Source: Sulfurimonas sp. (GTDB taxonomy: Bacteria; Campylobacterota; Campylobacteria; Campylobacterales; Sulfurimonadaceae). From it: a stretch of DNA of 7,244 nucleotides. Below the pieces are notes generated by a model. That model had not been told where the DNA came from. It did no database searches and worked only from the letters and a program-made list of their open reading frames with translations. A program made the translations under genes and the position numbers. Shown here piece after piece: positions 1 to 7,244 of the stretch. The stretch spans positions 1-7,244 of the forward strand of contig JANTGV010000049.1 of NCBI GenBank assembly GCA_024762745.1. The letters run 5' to 3'. How positions within the stretch are numbered: the stretch's first letter is position 1; each line of letters begins with the position of its first letter.

Positions 1-1306
1 CATAACTCTTAGTCCACTAACACTTAATGATGCAATAAATATTTTAAAAAAACAGAACTTAGAGATAAAAGCAGCCAAACTTGATGTTAAAGTTGCCAAA
101 GAAGATGCAGATACAGTTTCTGGAATGAACTGGGGTAAACTTGATTTTGAACAGAATATAGCCCGTTCAGATGACGCTGGAAATGTATTTGGTTTTAAAC
201 TTACATCTCGCGAGGCTAGTTTTGGAGATTTTGGTTTTGCCGAGTTTGACTCTACAAATCCAAATATTTTAGATGTTCAGCCAGAGGACTTAAACTATCC
301 AGAAGACAGAAATTTTTTCCAGAGTAAACTTAAATATGAAATTCCACTTTTTACAGGTTTTGCTCTCTCTAGTTACTCAGACATCAAAGAGTCTATGATA
401 AAGATGAAGAGTTTAGAAAAAGAGCAACTTGTAAATGAAAAAATTTATCAGCTTAGAAAGAGTTTCTACGATATGGCACTCCTTAAATCATCAATGAAAA
501 ACCTCAATAAGATTTTAAAAAATATTGATGTACTTGAAGAGATGACGCAGAGTATGATAGATGTTGGATACGCTAAAAAGGTTGATCTTTTAGAGGTAAA
601 AGCTAAAAAGGGTAACGTAGAGAGACTTCTAATGAATATGGAGTCAAACAAAAAACTTCTCTATCACTACTTAAGTTTTCTTCTTAACCAAAACGTAAAT
701 AACATAACAGCTCCAAGTGGTGATGTTCCTATGCCGATATACAGCGATGCAGATATATTGAATAATAACCTTGATATTCAAAAAGCGCAGACTGGTCTTA
801 CCATAAGAAAAAGTATGTTAAATGCATCAGAGGCATCATACTATCCTACTGTCGGTGCGTTTGCTGAACTTGCAACTGCTGATGACACTTTTTTAGGTGA
901 TGCAGGTGACCATAAATCCTATACAGTCGGAGCAAGACTTACTTGGAATATTTTTAATGGCGGTATAGACAGTGCAAAAATTGAAAAGTCAAAGCTAGAA
1001 CACCTTAAAACGCAATCACAGGTACAGCTTGCAAAAAAAGGCATAGCACTACAGATAGCAAAAATTAGAACTGAGATATCAAGTGCAGATGATGAGATAG
1101 CATCTTTAAAAGATGAACTTGCATTAGCAGATGTTATTTATGAGAACTACGAAGGAAGATATAAAGAGAAACTCTCTTCTATGAGTGACGTAATCATAAA
1201 ACAGTCTGAGCAAATTCAAAAAATTCTAGAGCTGCAGGTAGCGAAAAACAAACGCAACCAAAAAGTATTTGCACTAGAAAAAATAGCAAACGGAGAGTAT
1301 AAATAA
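1..1306 (+). CDS. TolC-family outer-membrane efflux channel protein (5' partial)
   Basis: Outer-membrane channel of a tripartite efflux system, expected to form a trimeric barrel with a periplasmic alpha-helical tunnel. The frame is open from base 2, so the first visible ATG at 125 is not the real start: the 41 codons before it read LTLNDAINILKKQNLEIKAA, the typical first helix of mature TolC-like proteins. Only the signal peptide and a few residues should be missing; 434 residues are visible. The rest shows the two-fold TolC repeat: long amphipathic helices rich in Lys, Glu and Leu, then a beta-strand segment near 300-325 of the visible chain ending in TWNIFNGG, then a second helical hairpin to the C-terminus (IANGEYK). 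The gene overlaps the adaptor gene by one base (TAATG), so it is probably the first or an early gene of the efflux operon. The family is clear; the substrate is not. Confidence 0.93.
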   Translation, partial: ITLSPLTLNDAINILKKQNLEIKAAKLDVKVAKEDADTVSGMNWGKLDFEQNIARSDDAGNVFGFKLTSREASFGDFGFAEFDSTNPNILDVQPEDLNYPEDRNFFQSKLKYEIPLFTGFALSSYSDIKESMIKMKSLEKEQLVNEKIYQLRKSFYDMALLKSSMKNLNKILKNIDVLEEMTQSMIDVGYAKKVDLLEVKAKKGNVERLLMNMESNKKLLYHYLSFLLNQNVNNITAPSGDVPMPIYSDADILNNNLDIQKAQTGLTIRKSMLNASEASYYPTVGAFAELATADDTFLGDAGDHKSYTVGARLTWNIFNGGIDSAKIEKSKLEHLKTQSQVQLAKKGIALQIAKIRTEISSADDEIASLKDELALADVIYENYEGRYKEKLSSMSDVIIKQSEQIQKILELQVAKNKRNQKVFALEKIANGEYK

Positions 1307-2055
1307 TGATACGAAAAATTTTAATAATAGTAGCACTCGGTGCTACACTTACAGCAGAGACACTAACTCTCTCAGGAAGCGTTATCTCTGATAACCAGAA
1401 GATGATTACAAGTAGATTTATGGGATTTGTAACAAATGTAAATATTTCAGAAGGTGAAAAAGTCCGTAAAGATCAGACTCTTTACACTATTGACTCACGC
1501 GAAATAGACTCTGCAAAAAGACAGTCTGAGCTCTCTCTTCAAATGTACCAAAACCAATACACAAATGTAAAACTAAACCTAGAGAGATATAAAAGACTTC
1601 TTGAAAAAGATATGGTTTCAAAATATGAAGTTGAAAACCTTGAGCTTGCTGCTCTGAACCTTCAAGATATGATCTCTATAGCTGAAGCAAGGCTCCAAGA
1701 GGTAAACAACCAGTATAAATACTTAAACATAAAAGCTCCAAACAGCGGTGTGGTTGTTGCTAAAAATATAAAAGTTGGCGAGATGGCAATGCCAGGTATG
1801 CCTGCCATAATCCTTTCAGACTTAAGTAACCTGAAAATCTCTGCTGAAATCGCTGAGAGTAATCTTGCAATGATTAAACATGGAAAAAAAGTTACTGTTA
1901 AAATACCTTCGCTTGGAATCAATACAATCGGTAAAATATCTGCAATTATTCCAAACTCCAACCCTATGACTCACACTTTTAAAATCAAGGTCTCATTCAA
2001 GACTAACAATAGATCAGTGTATCCTGGTATGTATGCAACAATAGACATAAACTAA
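1306..2055 (+). CDS. Short periplasmic adaptor (HlyD/AcrA-type membrane fusion protein)
   Basis: Periplasmic adaptor linking the RND pump to the TolC channel. Residues 1-17 (MIRKILIIVALGATLTA) look like a Sec signal peptide; there is no lipobox Cys, so it is probably soluble rather than a lipoprotein. The order is: first half of the lipoyl/barrel-sandwich domain (about 35-62), an alpha-helical hairpin (about 65-135), the second lipoyl half (KAPNSGVVVAKN, 143-154), then a beta-barrel domain to the end. The hairpin tip carries the TolC-contact signature R-x3-L-x6-S at R94, L98 and S105. At 249 residues it is well below the usual 350-400, and it ends at PGMYATIDIN, where the membrane-proximal domain would normally begin. 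The start uses GGAG at 1292-1295, inside the upstream gene. The shortness may be natural or an old truncation; the 9-base gap to the next gene leaves no room for a remnant. Confidence 0.93.
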   Translation: MIRKILIIVALGATLTAETLTLSGSVISDNQKMITSRFMGFVTNVNISEGEKVRKDQTLYTIDSREIDSAKRQSELSLQMYQNQYTNVKLNLERYKRLLEKDMVSKYEVENLELAALNLQDMISIAEARLQEVNNQYKYLNIKAPNSGVVVAKNIKVGEMAMPGMPAIILSDLSNLKISAEIAESNLAMIKHGKKVTVKIPSLGINTIGKISAIIPNSNPMTHTFKIKVSFKTNNRSVYPGMYATIDIN

Positions 2056-2064
2056 GGTAATAAT

Positions 2065-3672
2065 ATGCAAAATCACAAACCTTATGAACCAACAGATATA
2101 GCAGGAAAACTTGCTCGGGCATTTCTAAGAAATCCTCTTACAGTTGTTCTTGGTATATTTCTTCTAGCTATTGGCTATTTAGCCCTTTTGATTATGCCTC
2201 GTGAAGAGAATCCTCAAATGGTAGTTTCAGGCTCCACAGTTATCGTTGCCCTACCAGGTGCGAGTGCAGCCGAAATACAAAAAGTCATCGTTCAACCTCT
2301 TGAGAGAAAGATGAAAGAGGTAAAGGGTGTCGAGCATATTTTTGGTCGAGCTATGGATAACGTTGGTATAGTAAACGCAGCCTTTTATATCGGTGAGGAA
2401 AAAGAGGACTCCAACCTTAAAGTCTATGATAAAATCATGCAAAACTCAGATATTTTCCCTCAGGGTGCTATGAGTCCAATCATAAAACCTCTTGATATCG
2501 ATATCGATATTCCCGTTGTCTCTATCGCTTTTTTTGCAAGTGACAATAGTATAGGTCATGTTGAACTGCATGATAAAGTCAAAAAAATTCAACACCACCT
2601 CAATGGCTTACCTAATGTTGCAGTCACTGCCATAAAAGGTGACCACAAACACCAGTTTAATATAGAGGTCGATCTCAATAAACTTTCAGGTTATAACATC
2701 TCTATGGGGCAGATTGTTGAATCAGTTCAGTCTCTTGCCTATAGTGTTCCTGCAGTTAAAAACAGAACTAAAGATAATGAGATAGTTATGCTTGGTGTTA
2801 AAAACGCTATAGAGAGTTCAAAGGATGTTGGTAATATTATGGTTGCTCAATACATGGGTTCTCCAATCTACTTAAAAAATATTGCCAAAATTACAGACTC
2901 ATATAATATACAAAACTTCCAGTCTGCTTCTATCAGTATACAATCGGATGATGGAAAGTTTTCACCTCTTCAAGAACAGGTAACCTTAACGGTCTCCAAA
3001 CTACAAGGTACAAACGCAGTTGTTATTGCAAACGCAGTTAAAAAAGAGTTAGAGTCTTACAAAGAGTTTTTAAAGAGTAATGGTATTAACTATGTCATCA
3101 CAAGAAATGATGGAGAGAGAGCAAACGAAGCTGTAAATGAGCTTGTTTATCACTTAGTACTTTCTATTGTAATCATCGCTGTTTTACTTGTTTTAGTTCT
3201 TGGTTGGAGAGAATCTCTCATCGTTACTTTTACTGTTCCTGCTATTTTAGCTATTACACTTTTTGTAGCTTACTTAAGTGGTCAAACCATCAACCGTATT
3301 ACTCTCTTCGCATTTTTACTCTCGCTAGGTCTACTTGTTGATGCCGCGATTATTGTTATTGAGAATATTCATAGACACTACCACTCAGTTGAGTCTTCTC
3401 ACGAGAGTGATGATGACCTTATGATTAAGGCGACAGATGAGATTGGGCCACCTACAAATATAGCAACACTTGCAATTATCATGACTATGGTACCTATGGC
3501 CTTTGTTGGCCAAATGATGGGTCAGTTTATGAAACCGATTCCTGCCAATGTACCAGTTGCTCTTGTCGCTTCACTTTTTGTTGCATACATCTTTACACCT
3601 TATCTGGCTGTAAGAATGTTAAAAAAACCGGACCACTCCAAACAAACAAATCATGACAAGGGAGAGCATTAA
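2065..3672 (+). CDS. RND efflux permease, N-terminal half (TM1-TM6)
   Basis: N-terminal half of an inner-membrane proton-driven RND pump of the AcrB superfamily. TM1 is at about 25-45, followed by the PREENPQ motif (46-51), then the first periplasmic porter region (about 50-355, with ALPGASAAEI at 62-71). TM2-TM6 lie at about 360-380, 386-405, 411-434, 464-483 and 493-517. The protein stops just after TM6 with a hydrophilic, His/Lys-rich tail. Unsplit relatives are about 1000-1100 residues, so this is half a pump; the other half follows directly. In TM4 the proton-relay motif reads LLVDAAIIVIEN: D426 matches AcrB D407, but the partner Asp (AcrB D408) is Ala427. The stop overlaps the next start as TAATG. 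The start follows AAGG (2054-2057) at normal spacing. The motifs fit the RND subfamily with the PREE.PQ motif, often labelled acriflavin resistance; the substrate is unknown. Confidence 0.93.
   Translation: MQNHKPYEPTDIAGKLARAFLRNPLTVVLGIFLLAIGYLALLIMPREENPQMVVSGSTVIVALPGASAAEIQKVIVQPLERKMKEVKGVEHIFGRAMDNVGIVNAAFYIGEEKEDSNLKVYDKIMQNSDIFPQGAMSPIIKPLDIDIDIPVVSIAFFASDNSIGHVELHDKVKKIQHHLNGLPNVAVTAIKGDHKHQFNIEVDLNKLSGYNISMGQIVESVQSLAYSVPAVKNRTKDNEIVMLGVKNAIESSKDVGNIMVAQYMGSPIYLKNIAKITDSYNIQNFQSASISIQSDDGKFSPLQEQVTLTVSKLQGTNAVVIANAVKKELESYKEFLKSNGINYVITRNDGERANEAVNELVYHLVLSIVIIAVLLVLVLGWRESLIVTFTVPAILAITLFVAYLSGQTINRITLFAFLLSLGLLVDAAIIVIENIHRHYHSVESSHESDDDLMIKATDEIGPPTNIATLAIIMTMVPMAFVGQMMGQFMKPIPANVPVALVASLFVAYIFTPYLAVRMLKKPDHSKQTNHDKGEH
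2494..2510 (+). repeat. Short GATATC tandem repeat inside the pump N-half
   Basis: GATATCGATATCGATAT is almost three copies of a 6-base unit; 2495-2510 is also a perfect 16-base palindrome. It encodes DIDIDI (residues 144-149) at the place where relatives, from memory, carry a Ser/Asp-Ile-Asp-Asp type segment before the next porter strand. It may be a local slippage expansion that kept the frame. Confidence 0.5.
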
Positions 3673-3674
3673 TG
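3658..3674 (+). promoter_or_regulatory. Ribosome binding site and TAATG overlap that start the pump C-half
   Basis: AAGGGAG at 3658-3664 lies seven bases before the ATG at 3672, and the N-half stop TAA at 3670-3672 shares its last A with that ATG. This arrangement favours re-initiation by the terminating ribosome, which would keep the two halves near 1:1. It argues that the split is a real gene boundary rather than a sequencing frameshift. Confidence 0.75.
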
Positions 3675-5387
3675 TTTAAAAAGTTTGAAAAAGCTGTTTT
3701 AAATGGCATACAGAGCTCTGCTCAAAGAAAATTTATACTTATAGGGACGCTTGTTGCGTTTATACTATCCGTGATGATGATAGCCCCTACAAAAATAGTA
3801 TTAGCAAAGATGCTTCCGGGTAAAAACAATGACACCTTTACTGTATATATAGATTTGCAAAATGGAAGTTCTATTGAGCAGACAAAACAAGTAAGTGACT
3901 GTGTTGTCGGCTTTATACAAAAAGAGAAAGAGGTTCTTGATACTGAAGTTTTTTTAGGTACAGGTTCACCTCTTGATTTTGCAGGACTTATTAAAGGTTC
4001 ACACTTTAAAAATTCAGAAAATGTGGCTGAAATCGTTTTAAACCTTACGAAAAAACATCATAGAGTGGAACCATCATATATGATGGTTCAAAGAATGAGA
4101 CCTATCATAAACCAGACATGTTCTCAACTCTTTCCAAATACGAAAATATCTTTTGTAGAACCACCTGCCGGGCCTCCGGTTTTAGCAGCAGTTGTTGCAG
4201 AGATATATGGATACGATTCAAAAGGAATCAGAAACCTAGCAGATAAAGTCTCTAATGTATTTGAGAGTACTGAAGGTCTAGTTGATGTTGATGTAATGCA
4301 AGATGATATCTACGACACTTACGAAATAAAAGTCAACACAGAAAAAGTTTCACGTTCAGGTGTCTCTGTAAAACAGTTAAATGATATTCTTTACCTTGCG
4401 TTTGAGGGTATGAATATAGCTGTTAAAAACTCTGATGTTTATTCAGATCAGATTCCAATCTATCTCTCACTGAGTAAAGAGTCTAAAAAGTTCTCTACAA
4501 AAGACATAAACGCAGTAAAAGCAAAACTGGCAGCTCTTAAACTTATGAATAAAATGGGCATGATGACTCCATTAACAGAACTTGTAACAGTTATACCTAA
4601 AAAATCTAATCCAATGATTCTAAGTAAAAACCTTTATCAGATGACAAATGTAATGGCTGAGACAGATATGGTATCTCAAGTTTACCCTCTCATGGATGCA
4701 AGAAGTGTGATTTTAGATACATTCTCCGATGAGTATGAGATCACAACAACCGGTCTCTTTAATCTTGAACTTAAAGAGAAGAGTACAGGCTCTATATATA
4801 GACTCGTTTGGGATGGAGAAATGGAAGTTACACTCGATACCTTTGTAGAGCTTGGAGCTGCGTTTATAGCTGCTTTAGTACTTATATTTTTACTTATGGT
4901 AATTTACTATAAGAGTTATACACTAAGTGGAATCATTTTGTTAGGTTCTTTTCTCTCTATAATCGGTGTAATTGTCGGTCACTGGATAATGGATTTATTC
5001 ACCACAGACACATTCTTTTTAACTGCGACATCTCTCATCGGATTTATTGCACTCATAGGAATCAGTTCTCGTAACTCTTTGCTACTTATAGACTTTACAA
5101 AATCTCTGATGGATGAAAAAGGAATGCATAAAGCAGAAGCTATCGCATACGCAACAGCAACACGTGCTAAACCGATTTTCTTAACTGCAGCAGCTATTAT
5201 TCTTGCTTCGACACTTCTTGCTGGTGATGCAGTCTTTGGTGGTCTTGGTGTTGCTCTTATATTTGGAACTGTAGCGGCTGTTGTAGCTTCACTTATAGTA
5301 GTACCAGTACTCTTATATATGGCAGATTTGGAAACGCACTTTCACTTTCATGAAAAAAGAGCTGTATCTATAAACGATCCACTTTAA
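3672..5387 (+). CDS. RND efflux permease, C-terminal half (TM7-TM12)
   Basis: C-terminal half of the same RND pump. It begins with a short cytoplasmic helix and TM7 (about 20-38), followed by the KMLPG motif (46-50), then a large periplasmic porter region (about 50-385) containing PPAGPPVLAAVVAEIYG (164-180) and WDGEM (380-384). TM8-TM12 lie at about 391-411, 417-437, 450-475, 498-517 and 522-549. TM10 reads GISSRNSLLLIDF: Arg467 occupies the place of AcrB Lys940. TM11 begins RAKPIFLTAAA, with Lys where AcrB has Arg971. The tail is His-rich (THFHFHEK). It has its own SD-like AAGGGAG at 3658-3664, seven bases before the ATG, within the end of the N-half gene. A TGA in this frame at 3654-3656 shows the ORF cannot extend far upstream. 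Assembly of a working pump from both halves is inferred; each alone lacks half the proton relay. Confidence 0.93.
   Translation: MFKKFEKAVLNGIQSSAQRKFILIGTLVAFILSVMMIAPTKIVLAKMLPGKNNDTFTVYIDLQNGSSIEQTKQVSDCVVGFIQKEKEVLDTEVFLGTGSPLDFAGLIKGSHFKNSENVAEIVLNLTKKHHRVEPSYMMVQRMRPIINQTCSQLFPNTKISFVEPPAGPPVLAAVVAEIYGYDSKGIRNLADKVSNVFESTEGLVDVDVMQDDIYDTYEIKVNTEKVSRSGVSVKQLNDILYLAFEGMNIAVKNSDVYSDQIPIYLSLSKESKKFSTKDINAVKAKLAALKLMNKMGMMTPLTELVTVIPKKSNPMILSKNLYQMTNVMAETDMVSQVYPLMDARSVILDTFSDEYEITTTGLFNLELKEKSTGSIYRLVWDGEMEVTLDTFVELGAAFIAALVLIFLLMVIYYKSYTLSGIILLGSFLSIIGVIVGHWIMDLFTTDTFFLTATSLIGFIALIGISSRNSLLLIDFTKSLMDEKGMHKAEAIAYATATRAKPIFLTAAAIILASTLLAGDAVFGGLGVALIFGTVAAVVASLIVVPVLLYMADLETHFHFHEKRAVSINDPL
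4068..4089. repeat. 22-bp perfect palindrome within the pump C-half
   Basis: The two 11-base arms, GAACCATCATA and TATGATGGTTC, meet with no spacer. It lies inside coding sequence and specifies part of VEPSYMMVQR (residues 132-141). It is centred on TATA, as many dimeric repressor sites are, but no function is shown. Without a spacer an RNA hairpin would have to open the central bases for a loop. Confidence 0.6.
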
Positions 5388-5410
5388 TCTCAACTCTTTA
5401 ATTTCTTCAT

Positions 5411-5442
5411 CTCGCTCCCATGCTTTGATTGGGAGTGTATAC
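5411..5442 (+). repeat. REP-like hairpin unit, copy 1
   Basis: A 32-base unit starting CTCGCTCCCA and ending GGGAGTGTATAC. A 6-bp stem (CTCCCA 5415-5420 with TGGGAG 5430-5435) encloses a 9-base loop. Aligned by eye with the reverse complement of 5478-5509 it agrees at about two thirds of positions, concentrated in the outer arms (CTCG, TCCCA, TGGGA, ATAC). It begins 23 bases after the pump stop codon. Confidence 0.7.
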
Positions 5443-5477
5443 TGATTTATCTTACTTTACTCTCTATTGCTATTGAT

Positions 5478-5509
5478 GTATGCATTCCCAAGTCCAACTT
5501 GGGAACGAG
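5478..5509 (-). repeat. REP-like hairpin unit, copy 2 (inverted)
   Basis: A 32-base unit in inverted orientation to copy 1. It has a perfect 9-bp stem, TTCCCAAGT (5485-5493) and ACTTGGGAA (5497-5505), around a CCA loop, followed by CGAG. The CGTTCCCA/TTGGGAACG type of hairpin is a widespread dispersed intergenic repeat in bacteria, linked in some genomes to REP-associated tyrosine transposases (RAYTs). No such transposase is in this window. The paired inverted layout, 35 bases apart, resembles a BIME. Confidence 0.75.
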
Positions 5510-5558
5510 AAAATTATATTAGTAGAACGTGATTGTTGTTAAAGGATGAAGAGTTGTT

Positions 5559-5582
5559 TTCTCTTCTCAATAGAGAAGAGAA
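5559..5582. terminator. Perfect 10-bp stem-loop downstream of serA, possible terminator
   Basis: TTCTCTTCTC (5559-5568) pairs perfectly with GAGAAGAGAA (5573-5582) around an AATA loop. It lies 17 bases past the serA stop on the - strand and is also the last structure met by read-through from the efflux operon. Neither strand has a proper T-run after it, so it is a weak intrinsic terminator at best; it may instead stabilise the mRNA 3' end or limit convergent transcription. Confidence 0.4.
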
Positions 5583-5599
5583 TCAGAAGTGTAGTATAT

Positions 5600-7189
5600 T
5601 TATATACGAGCGTAATTTACACTAATACAAGCATCTAAGCTTGCGAGTTCTGTAAGTGTTGTATCATCAACTGTATTATCAACTAAAATAACAGCCAGTG
5701 CCTGACCTTCGCTATTTCTTGAGAGTGAAAAGTCTGCAATATTAACATTGTGACTTGCAAGAGTGGAACCTATACTTCCGATAACACCAGGAACATCACT
5801 GTTTTTAAACAGAATCATATCACCTTTAAGAGCAACTTCAATATCAAAACCATCAATAGCAACAATACGTTTCACACCATCATCAAAGATAGTAGCTGAA
5901 ATACTTGTTGTACCCTCAGCAGTTGTTAGTTTTACAGTAATTAAGTTCTTAAATACAGCAGAGTCAGCAAGTGCTTCTGACTCTATTTTTATACCTTTCT
6001 CTTTGGCAACAAAATCTGCGTTTACATAGTTGATTGTGTCTCCACTACTTTGACTCATTGCACCAACTGCAACGAAAGTAGCAAGAGAGTCTACATACTC
6101 AGCTATATCACCATGACCACTTACTTTAATAGCAATGATTTGAGACTTGTTCATTTGAGACTCTAAGAAACCGATTTTTTGTCCCATCTCTAAGAATGGT
6201 TTTACAAATGATGGTATTTTAGACTCATCTATCGGTAGGTTCATCGCATGTGGATATGCGATACCTTTTGCTGCTTCCATTGCGTTTGCTGCTGCTTGTG
6301 TACCGATATTGTACTGAGACTCAAAAGTATTTGCACCTAAGTGAGGAGATACTGTTACATTATCAAGGTCTAAAAGTGGATGGTCAATTGCTGGTTCTTT
6401 GTTAAATACATCGATACCTGCAAAACGGATTTTACCGTTTGTAAGGTTGTTATAGAGTGCTTCTTCATCGTAAAGACCACCACGAGCACAGTTAATTACA
6501 ACTACACCATCTTTCATCTGTGCAAATTCTGCCTCACCAATCATACCGATTGTCTCTTGATTTTTAGGTGTGTGAATCGTGATAATGTCACACGCTAAAA
6601 TATCTGCAAAGTCTTTAGTGTAGGTCATATCTAAATCTGTTACTTTTGAAGGATGAATATATGGATCATATGCAACAATATCCATCTCAAAAGCCTGTGC
6701 ACGTTTTGCAACGCGAGAACCGATGTTACCAAAACCGATTACACCAAGTTTTTTCCCTTTCATCTCATACCCATACCATTTTTCTCTTTTCCAAATTCTT
6801 TGGTTTTTAAGGTGATCATGTGAATATGGGAACATTCTCATACATGAAAGCATATGTGTCAAAGTAAGTTCAACTGCAGCTATTGTATTTGCAGTTGGCA
6901 CATTCATGACGATAATACCCTCTTTTGAACACCCTGGGATATCTACATTGTCAACACCAACACCCGCACGAACAATCGCTTTCATGTTTTTTGCATTTGC
7001 TATAAACTTCTCATCTACGTCAGTTGAACTTCTAGTAATAGCTACATCAGCAGTTGGAATTATCTTCTCTACCAATTCAGTTTTATCAACATCTGCTGCC
7101 ATTACAAAATTTATAGTATCATCGTTTTTAAGCATTTCAAGACCAGCTTCATGAATGTGGTCACAAACTACTACTGTATGTTTTTTCAT
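5600..7189 (-). CDS. serA: D-3-phosphoglycerate dehydrogenase, long form with ACT domain
   Basis: Oxidises 3-phosphoglycerate to 3-phosphohydroxypyruvate with NAD, the first step of serine biosynthesis, in the cytoplasm. The 529 residues match the long (type 1) form. The N-terminal substrate-binding domain and the Rossmann domain (about 100-290) carry GFGNIG (152-157) with the NAD-ribose Asp at 175 (AYDPY). The catalytic triad is Arg236 (CARGG), Glu265 (NKEP) and His283 (SPHLGAN). Residues about 320-450 fit the intervening regulatory (ASB) domain. The C-terminal ACT domain (about 455-529, with NSDVPGVIGSIGSTLASHNV) is the usual seat of serine feedback inhibition. The start is the ATG at 7187-7189, with an AAGAGGAA SD at 7196-7203. 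The gene converges on the efflux operon. All key residues are present and nothing suggests damage. Confidence 0.97.
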   Translation of the reverse strand: MKKHTVVVCDHIHEAGLEMLKNDDTINFVMAADVDKTELVEKIIPTADVAITRSSTDVDEKFIANAKNMKAIVRAGVGVDNVDIPGCSKEGIIVMNVPTANTIAAVELTLTHMLSCMRMFPYSHDHLKNQRIWKREKWYGYEMKGKKLGVIGFGNIGSRVAKRAQAFEMDIVAYDPYIHPSKVTDLDMTYTKDFADILACDIITIHTPKNQETIGMIGEAEFAQMKDGVVVINCARGGLYDEEALYNNLTNGKIRFAGIDVFNKEPAIDHPLLDLDNVTVSPHLGANTFESQYNIGTQAAANAMEAAKGIAYPHAMNLPIDESKIPSFVKPFLEMGQKIGFLESQMNKSQIIAIKVSGHGDIAEYVDSLATFVAVGAMSQSSGDTINYVNADFVAKEKGIKIESEALADSAVFKNLITVKLTTAEGTTSISATIFDDGVKRIVAIDGFDIEVALKGDMILFKNSDVPGVIGSIGSTLASHNVNIADFSLSRNSEGQALAVILVDNTVDDTTLTELASLDACISVNYARI

Positions 7190-7244
7190 TTAATATTCCT
7201 CTTTATACGGCTTCACACTTGCCGAAATTTGATAGTTTTTTAGT
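7190..7244 (-). CDS. Possible 3' end of an unidentified upstream gene
   Basis: On the - strand one frame is open from the window edge to a TAA at 7190-7192 that directly abuts the serA ATG, reading LKNYQISASVKPYKEEY. A second frame is also open for part of the way (TKKLSNFGKCEAV), so 17 codons cannot prove a gene. In Campylobacter and Helicobacter, as I recall, serA lies close behind rpsA with a small hypothetical gene between them; this tail could belong to such a gene, in which case serA would be co-transcribed with it. I do not recognise the product. Confidence 0.35.
   Translation of the reverse strand, partial: LKNYQISASVKPYKEEY
7196..7203 (-). promoter_or_regulatory. serA ribosome binding site
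   Basis: On the - strand AAGAGGAA lies six bases before the serA ATG, with good complementarity to the 16S 3' end. It supports this start over any internal Met. Confidence 0.75.

Follow-up and report, generated by a model that had tools for sequence, protein, structure and literature searches.

The RND (resistance-nodulation-division) efflux permease encoded in a 7,244-nucleotide stretch of Sulfurimonas sp. DNA (contig JANTGV010000049.1, positions 1 to 7,244, hereafter the window) is divided between two adjacent genes, one for each six-helix half of the protein. The textbook RND pump is a single chain containing an internal repeat. Comparison of the window with related loci suggests, with a probability that we put at about 80%, that this is an obligate two-gene RND pump, produced by a single gene fission, with co-inherited halves, coupled translation, and heterodimers assembled as a trimer. 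The two genes and their junction (TM, transmembrane helix; SD, Shine-Dalgarno; ORF, open reading frame) are:

2065–3672, forward strand: RND permease N-half, 535 residues, with TM1–TM6 and the first periplasmic (porter) region (ORF, PF00873, AlphaFold2, Foldseek).
3672–5387, forward strand: RND permease C-half, 571 residues, with a short helix at residues 2–14, TM7–TM12 and the second periplasmic region (ORF, PF00873, AlphaFold2, Foldseek).
3654–3674, forward strand: junction, with TGA in the C frame at 3654–3656, an SD-like AAGGGAG at 3658–3664, and TAA at 3670–3672 overlapping ATG at 3672–3674 (TAATG), read from the sequence.

As judged against the profile PF00873 (ACR_tran, 1021 positions, cut-off 28 bits), both halves are members of the RND superfamily, each exceeding the gathering score and the two jointly covering the whole model. 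The N-half matched positions 5–498 (E 3.6e-72, 243.9 bits) and the C-half positions 526–1019 (E 1.3e-39, 136.2 bits), and the 27 positions left unmatched between them are the TM6/TM7 linker. AlphaFold2 models of each half alone were of moderate confidence (mean pLDDT 74.9 for the N-half and 75.7 for the C-half; pTM 0.58 and 0.57). Six long membrane-type helices were predicted in the N-half (25–43, 349–379, 381–404, 411–439, 449–485 and 491–518), and six more in the C-half (16–40, 383–413, 416–443, 452–482, 487–517 and 523–550) after a helix at 2–14 preceding TM7, which suggests that no main structural element is missing. The best Foldseek match was AcrD for the N-half (E 8.3e-29) and AcrB for the C-half (E 9.4e-20), and by sequence as well as by predicted fold the nearest solved structures for both halves are AcrB/MexB-type pumps. 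The initial annotation had taken the 535 + 571 residues for a complete pump broken at the boundary of its internal duplication; the profile is covered without loss, each half has its six long helices, and the edges at profile positions 498 and 526 place the break in the TM6/TM7 loop, so that both statements hold.

The division is widespread. In total 176 loci were compared, comprising the window, the genome-contig loci, 96 genome regions and 2 plasmid loci; 168 of them were split at the same place and 8 encoded one chain. Two of the split loci (L003 and L119) are the same contig, which leaves 167 distinct split N-half sequences with N-half identity down to about 46–50%. All 120 N-half homologues among the matches listed were 525–535 residues long with 79–93% identity, in a search limited to proteins of 0.55–1.75 times the query length, where one-chain pumps could not appear. 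The genome-contig scan gave, among the matches listed, 79 loci, mainly from Sulfurimonas, Sulfuricurvum or Campylobacterales and also from Thiovulum and Arcobacter; both halves were present in 77, every one of them split, and the other 2 run off their contigs.

A search of Campylobacterota genomes with both halves had been suggested in the initial annotation. Among 298 such genomes, the N-half (E ≤ 1e-60) matched 97 and the C-half (E ≤ 1e-40) matched the same 97 by eye comparison of the two lists, and therefore neither half occurs alone in this sample; the other 201 genomes had no member at these thresholds. The 96 regions came from 89 of the 97 genomes and contained 88 split and 8 one-chain loci, while the remaining 8 genomes were classed from N-half frames of 528–535 residues in the genome search. 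Thus a split pump is present in 90 of the 298 genomes and a one-chain member in 8, with one genome (G215) having both. A single split pump per genome is the rule at the threshold used, being found in 83 of these 90. In arrangement, though not in membership of the SecDF family, this is a two-subunit permease, with two separate six-helix chains both present at the 168 split loci and in the same 97 genomes. A single continuous frame across the junction was sought in the relatives within the split clade and found at none of the 168 split loci. The 8 one-chain loci, single ORFs of 1126–1181 residues with 43–50% (N-half) and 38–42% (C-half) identity to the window, are of Nautiliaceae type (Caminibacter, Nautilia, Lebetimonas); they form a separate group in the half-trees described below and thus do not speak against a real split.

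For each half alone, a tree was built from 85 rows, drawn from a pool of 128 that was thinned at 88% N-half identity and that had taken in 19 of the 79 genome-contig loci. The two trees shared 59 of 82 splits, with no conflicting pair among branches with SH-aLRT (Shimodaira-Hasegawa-like approximate likelihood ratio test) support of at least 95. The halves therefore travel together, and swapping of halves is not supported. The earlier suggestion that the halves could be exchanged with paralogues finds no backing in these trees, nor in the single pump of most split-bearing genomes.

The residues expected to form the proton relay are divided between the two chains. The relay function of the TM4 Asp and of the TM10 and TM11 residues is known from AcrB. 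In the window the corresponding residues are:

3340–3342, forward strand: Asp426 of the N-half (TM4); D in 71/71 split and 14/14 one-chain rows.
5070–5072, forward strand: Arg467 of the C-half (TM10); R in 71/71 split and 14/14 one-chain rows.
5163–5186, forward strand: Arg498 and Thr505 of the C-half (TM11); R and T in 71/71 split and 14/14 one-chain rows.

Asp426 aligns to what we take to be Asp407 of AcrB; Arg467 presumably stands at the position of AcrB Lys940, and Arg498 and Thr505 at those of Arg971 and Thr978. At the next TM4 position (AcrB 408), 59 of the 71 split rows have Ala and the other 12 have Asp. The TM4 Asp and the charged residues of TM10 and TM11 are thus all present, with a function assigned by analogy to AcrB. 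Because these presumed relay residues are invariant and yet divided, with the Asp on one chain and two Arg and the Thr on the other, each half looks incomplete, and if the residues act as in AcrB neither half should work alone, the relay forming only when the chains meet. This does not agree with the initial annotation, which had called each half a minimal RND unit. It also bears on the possibility that each half is a working transporter alone, as a homo-oligomer, which we regard as improbable. Each half does have six helices and a porter-type periplasmic region, and SecD/SecF is a known arrangement of 2 × 6 helices (available part of PMC8277102), but the loci that were read always had both halves, adjacent to each other; the two trees match, and the relay residues are divided in every split row.

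The split rows made up one clade in both half-trees. In the 85-row trees this clade held 71 rows with SH-aLRT support of 100, and in more careful trees of 47 rows it held 35, supported at 100/100 and found in 100% of 200 bootstrap trees. On the opposite side of the branch between split and one-chain pumps are the Nautiliaceae-type pumps and plasmid-borne one-chain pumps of Pseudomonadota, Cyanobacteriota and Bacteroidota. The relatives from outside Campylobacterota were drawn from a small plasmid sample, and the protein searches cover the matches listed; within these limits, 15 of 16 were encoded by one ORF, and the 16th (L227, Methylocella) has a C part that is interrupted internally and not at the TM6/TM7 boundary. 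The sequences are most simply read as the outcome of a single ancient gene fission, without any re-fusion among the sampled pumps, and on this reading the split arrangement is inherited by sulfur-cycle relatives from their common ancestor. The reverse history, from an ancestral split state to one-chain pumps formed by later fusion, appears quite improbable. The trees are unrooted, so that parsimony cannot tell gain from loss or prove the direction of change, but the nearest relatives outside the phylum are one chain with the single exception above, and the split rows form an internal clade in both trees. Five genomes that were searched fully each gave one split pump plus further RND matches of 19–27% identity, and these other pumps are also one chain, mostly in frames of 1011–1074 residues.

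The window junction bears out the earlier description of it, in which the C-half has its own SD sequence and an ATG overlapping the N-half stop by one base, with a TGA in its frame at 3654. The 1-base overlap of stop and start recurs in 93 of the 168 split loci and a 4-base overlap is found in 35. Relative to the N-half stop, the C-half starts between −14 and +9 nt in 166 loci, the two exceptions being −38 and +48. An SD-like motif (4 nt or longer) precedes the start in 162 of the 168 loci versus 8.1% of 8,350 random stretches, a frequency biased upward by the start codons having been picked by a rule that favours SD motifs. The cut sits in the least conserved stretch (mean 0.18, last N-half block). 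A one-chain pump still made across the junction, by programmed frameshifting or by read-through of the stop, is very hard to reconcile with these data. The window itself leaves 15 nt of open C frame ahead of the overlap, where the SD-like element lies, but in 33 of the 168 split loci this open stretch measures no more than 9 nt up to the end of the N stop, and the relative frame of the halves differs among loci (132, 28 and 8). Since offsets and frames vary, a common frameshift site is ruled out. One genome (G049) had a 1093-residue frame listed in the genome search; it was counted as split because reading of the region revealed a TAG between the halves and a C-half with its own SD and ATG.

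A sequencing or assembly error, a nonsense or frameshift mutation that hit a one-chain pump in one strain, and gene decay, the first two of which the initial annotation had itself raised as a worry, are practically excluded by the same split in distinct sequences from many assemblies, by the annotation of two separate coding sequences in RefSeq for the Sulfurovum mangrovi and Sulfuricurvum kujiense plasmids, and by pairwise ratios of nonsynonymous to synonymous substitution (dN/dS) of 0.04–0.09 for both halves against three relatives, which, with dS near saturation, indicate purifying selection on both halves.

The obligate two-gene pump could have arisen and could work as follows. An ancestral one-chain permease would have been cut once, in the hydrophilic TM6/TM7 loop, in the ancestor of the Campylobacterota lineages that carry the split pump. 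By comparison of loci, the halves appear to have been co-inherited since then, and they appear to be translated from one operon with an adaptor and an outer membrane factor, usually across an overlapping stop and start. Translational coupling would supply the halves at about 1:1. One N-half and one C-half may then pair laterally within the membrane to give the usual 12-helix protomer, in which the relay Asp of the N-half would meet both Arg residues and the Thr of the C-half. A trimer of these heterodimers is the natural inference, and it would engage the adaptor and the outer membrane channel for export driven by the proton gradient. Several points weigh against this account. The two chains presumably associate in the membrane, a step deduced from the genes; the models are of single halves at moderate confidence, with loose fits to known pumps (TMq about 0.5–0.7, root-mean-square deviation 6–11 Å); the rooting of the fission rests on distant one-chain relatives, several of the outgroup branches being long; and 16 split loci, certain second copies among them, have no upstream adaptor, some of these lying at contig ends.

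The genes upstream of the permease in the window complete a tripartite efflux system within the same operon:

1306–2055, forward strand: periplasmic adaptor (membrane fusion protein), 249 residues (PF16576, 2e-31; TIGR01730, 134 bits, cut-off 94.9).
2–1306, forward strand: outer membrane factor (TolC-like), truncated at its 5′ end by the window edge (PF02321, 4.5e-33).

The same order is usual elsewhere. Among 165 split loci, the adaptor was at position −1 in 147, the outer membrane factor at position −2 in 144, and both directly upstream in 140. Downstream of the C-half is serA, on the opposite strand. Between the C-half stop and serA, several inverted repeats were noticed by eye at 5400–5590, and the terminator scan of the window listed none in this interval. 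A separate clade of split copies (L177, L178, L179, L202, L203 and L204) does not have the usual outer membrane factor and adaptor directly upstream. These are second copies in genomes G014, G052, G239, G226 and G269 and the sole copy in G209, and in L202–L204 an adaptor-like gene lies downstream on the opposite strand.

In family terms, the pump falls outside the curated HAE and HME groups. A full-length cut-off cannot judge halves, and the HAE and HME cut-offs were therefore applied to three one-chain relatives. These scored 429, 426 and 456 bits against NF033617 (RND_permease_2, cut-off 1250), 367, 330 and 342 against NF000282 (cut-off 1250), 339, 294 and 294 against TIGR00915 (cut-off 940), and 282, 289 and 269 against TIGR00914 (HME, cut-off 701). 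Scores so far under the cut-offs place them in neither curated family, and the label HAE-type given in the initial annotation is left unproven. The pump resembles the AcrB/MexB type (HAE-1) in the fold of both halves, the order of elements, the tripartite operon and the relay positions of TM4, TM10 and TM11; it differs in having two chains instead of one, in a TM4 motif that is D-A in 59 of 71 rows (D-D in 12), and in an Arg in place of Lys in TM10. A TM4 motif with just one Asp is also the CusA pattern. CusA/CzcA pumps (HME) belong to the same superfamily, but the one-chain relatives are below the TIGR00914 cut-off and score higher with the HAE-type models. The nearest one-chain relatives are the Nautiliaceae pumps and the plasmid pumps of other phyla, which differ in being single ORFs, those of Campylobacterota also having an N-terminal extension. 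In these Campylobacterota pumps (L194–L201) the extension is roughly 30–70 residues long before TM1 and is absent from the window N-half; by eye it is rich in Glu and Lys and coiled-coil-like in the five of eight inspected.

The nearest known arrangements are SecD/SecF, with 2 × 6 helices, and MdtB/MdtC, with two full-length permeases. SecD/SecF, a heterodimer of 2 × 6 TM helices in the part of PMC8277102 available, likewise has the 12-helix RND core as two six-helix chains, but SecDF is a protein-translocation helper outside tripartite efflux and of another family than the PF00873 found here. MdtB/MdtC is an RND pump requiring two different permease proteins (available parts of PMC8277102 and PMC7015380); there two full-length paralogues share one trimer, whereas here there are two halves of one permease. 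NolGHI, the nodulation factor exporter, is an RND permease once named as several genes that, per the same portion of PMC8277102, codes for a single gene, whereas the present split is genuine. The open-access literature, at the level of titles and abstract starts and with most subscription journals outside this scope, gave no account of a split RND efflux permease, and none is given in the accessible portions of PMC8277102, PMC5417439, PMC11349517 and PMC4338810.

A natural, ancient and stable split would mean that the TM6–TM7 connection is dispensable in evolution. The split pump would also be a natural system for studying the division of labour between pseudo-symmetric halves (proton relay, porter motion, adaptor docking), because the native operon allows either half to be deleted or tagged independently. 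For annotation it carries a warning: the RefSeq plasmid records name both halves 'efflux RND transporter permease subunit', so that one pump may be counted as two.

The neighbouring genes offer a lead on the substrate. In 10 of 15 annotated plasmid relatives from other phyla, one-chain or broken (from the L217–L232 set, hand-picked from the top matches, the count standing without a background rate), the pump gene adjoins genes for ArsR/SmtB, DUF2892, rhodanese/sulfur-transferase or FAD/NAD(P)-binding (sulfide:quinone-type) oxidoreductase proteins. The other 5 lack such neighbours, and they include the three relatives in the best-supported separate group, those of the plasmid set most like the Campylobacterota pumps. 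At the Campylobacterota split loci the neighbours, recognised from sequence, are housekeeping genes (serA, efp, DJ-1 family, rpsA) or mixed, and the only redox hints, which are faint, are a DUF4395 gene (13 loci, position −3 or −4) and a gene for a thioredoxin-fold protein (6 loci). A sulfur or metal substrate was therefore rejected as a reading of the Campylobacterota neighbours, and the sulfur context of the one-chain relatives is just a lead. As context, for pumps that may be of another subfamily, an operon of RND, sulfide:quinone oxidoreductase and adaptor genes in Azospira suillum was highly expressed under H2S oxidation and its deletion did not slow H2S oxidation (PMC5358917, available part), and RND pumps are among the genes near sulfane-sulfur repressors (PMC12423496, likewise in part). 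The Nitratiruptor metal-response genes, as given in the accessible text of PMC10092412, could not be matched to the split pump. We put a sulfur role of the pump at about one in four. Similarly doubtful is a wider proposal, that of a new RND subfamily, distinct from the curated HAE and HME families and possibly dedicated to sulfur compounds, whose split members were obligate trimers of N/C heterodimers already before the carrying Campylobacterota families diversified; if this were true, the internal duplication of the pump would in effect have been undone at the gene level.

Three further observations concern individual split loci. On one contig (L119, G244:C73), two identically scoring N-half matches lie about 7.2 kb apart, with two C-half matches likewise, which may reflect either a tandem duplication or a fault of assembly. 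In Sulfurovum mangrovi (L215), the split pump is found with serA, efp and a DJ-1 family gene, neighbours as in many loci, on a 395-kb record labelled plasmid; this record may be a chromid or a mislabelled contig. Two divergent split pumps, L216 on pSULKU01 and L188, have 46–49% N-half identity and lie beside a TetR-type regulator, which suggests a mobile, separately regulated version of the split pump.

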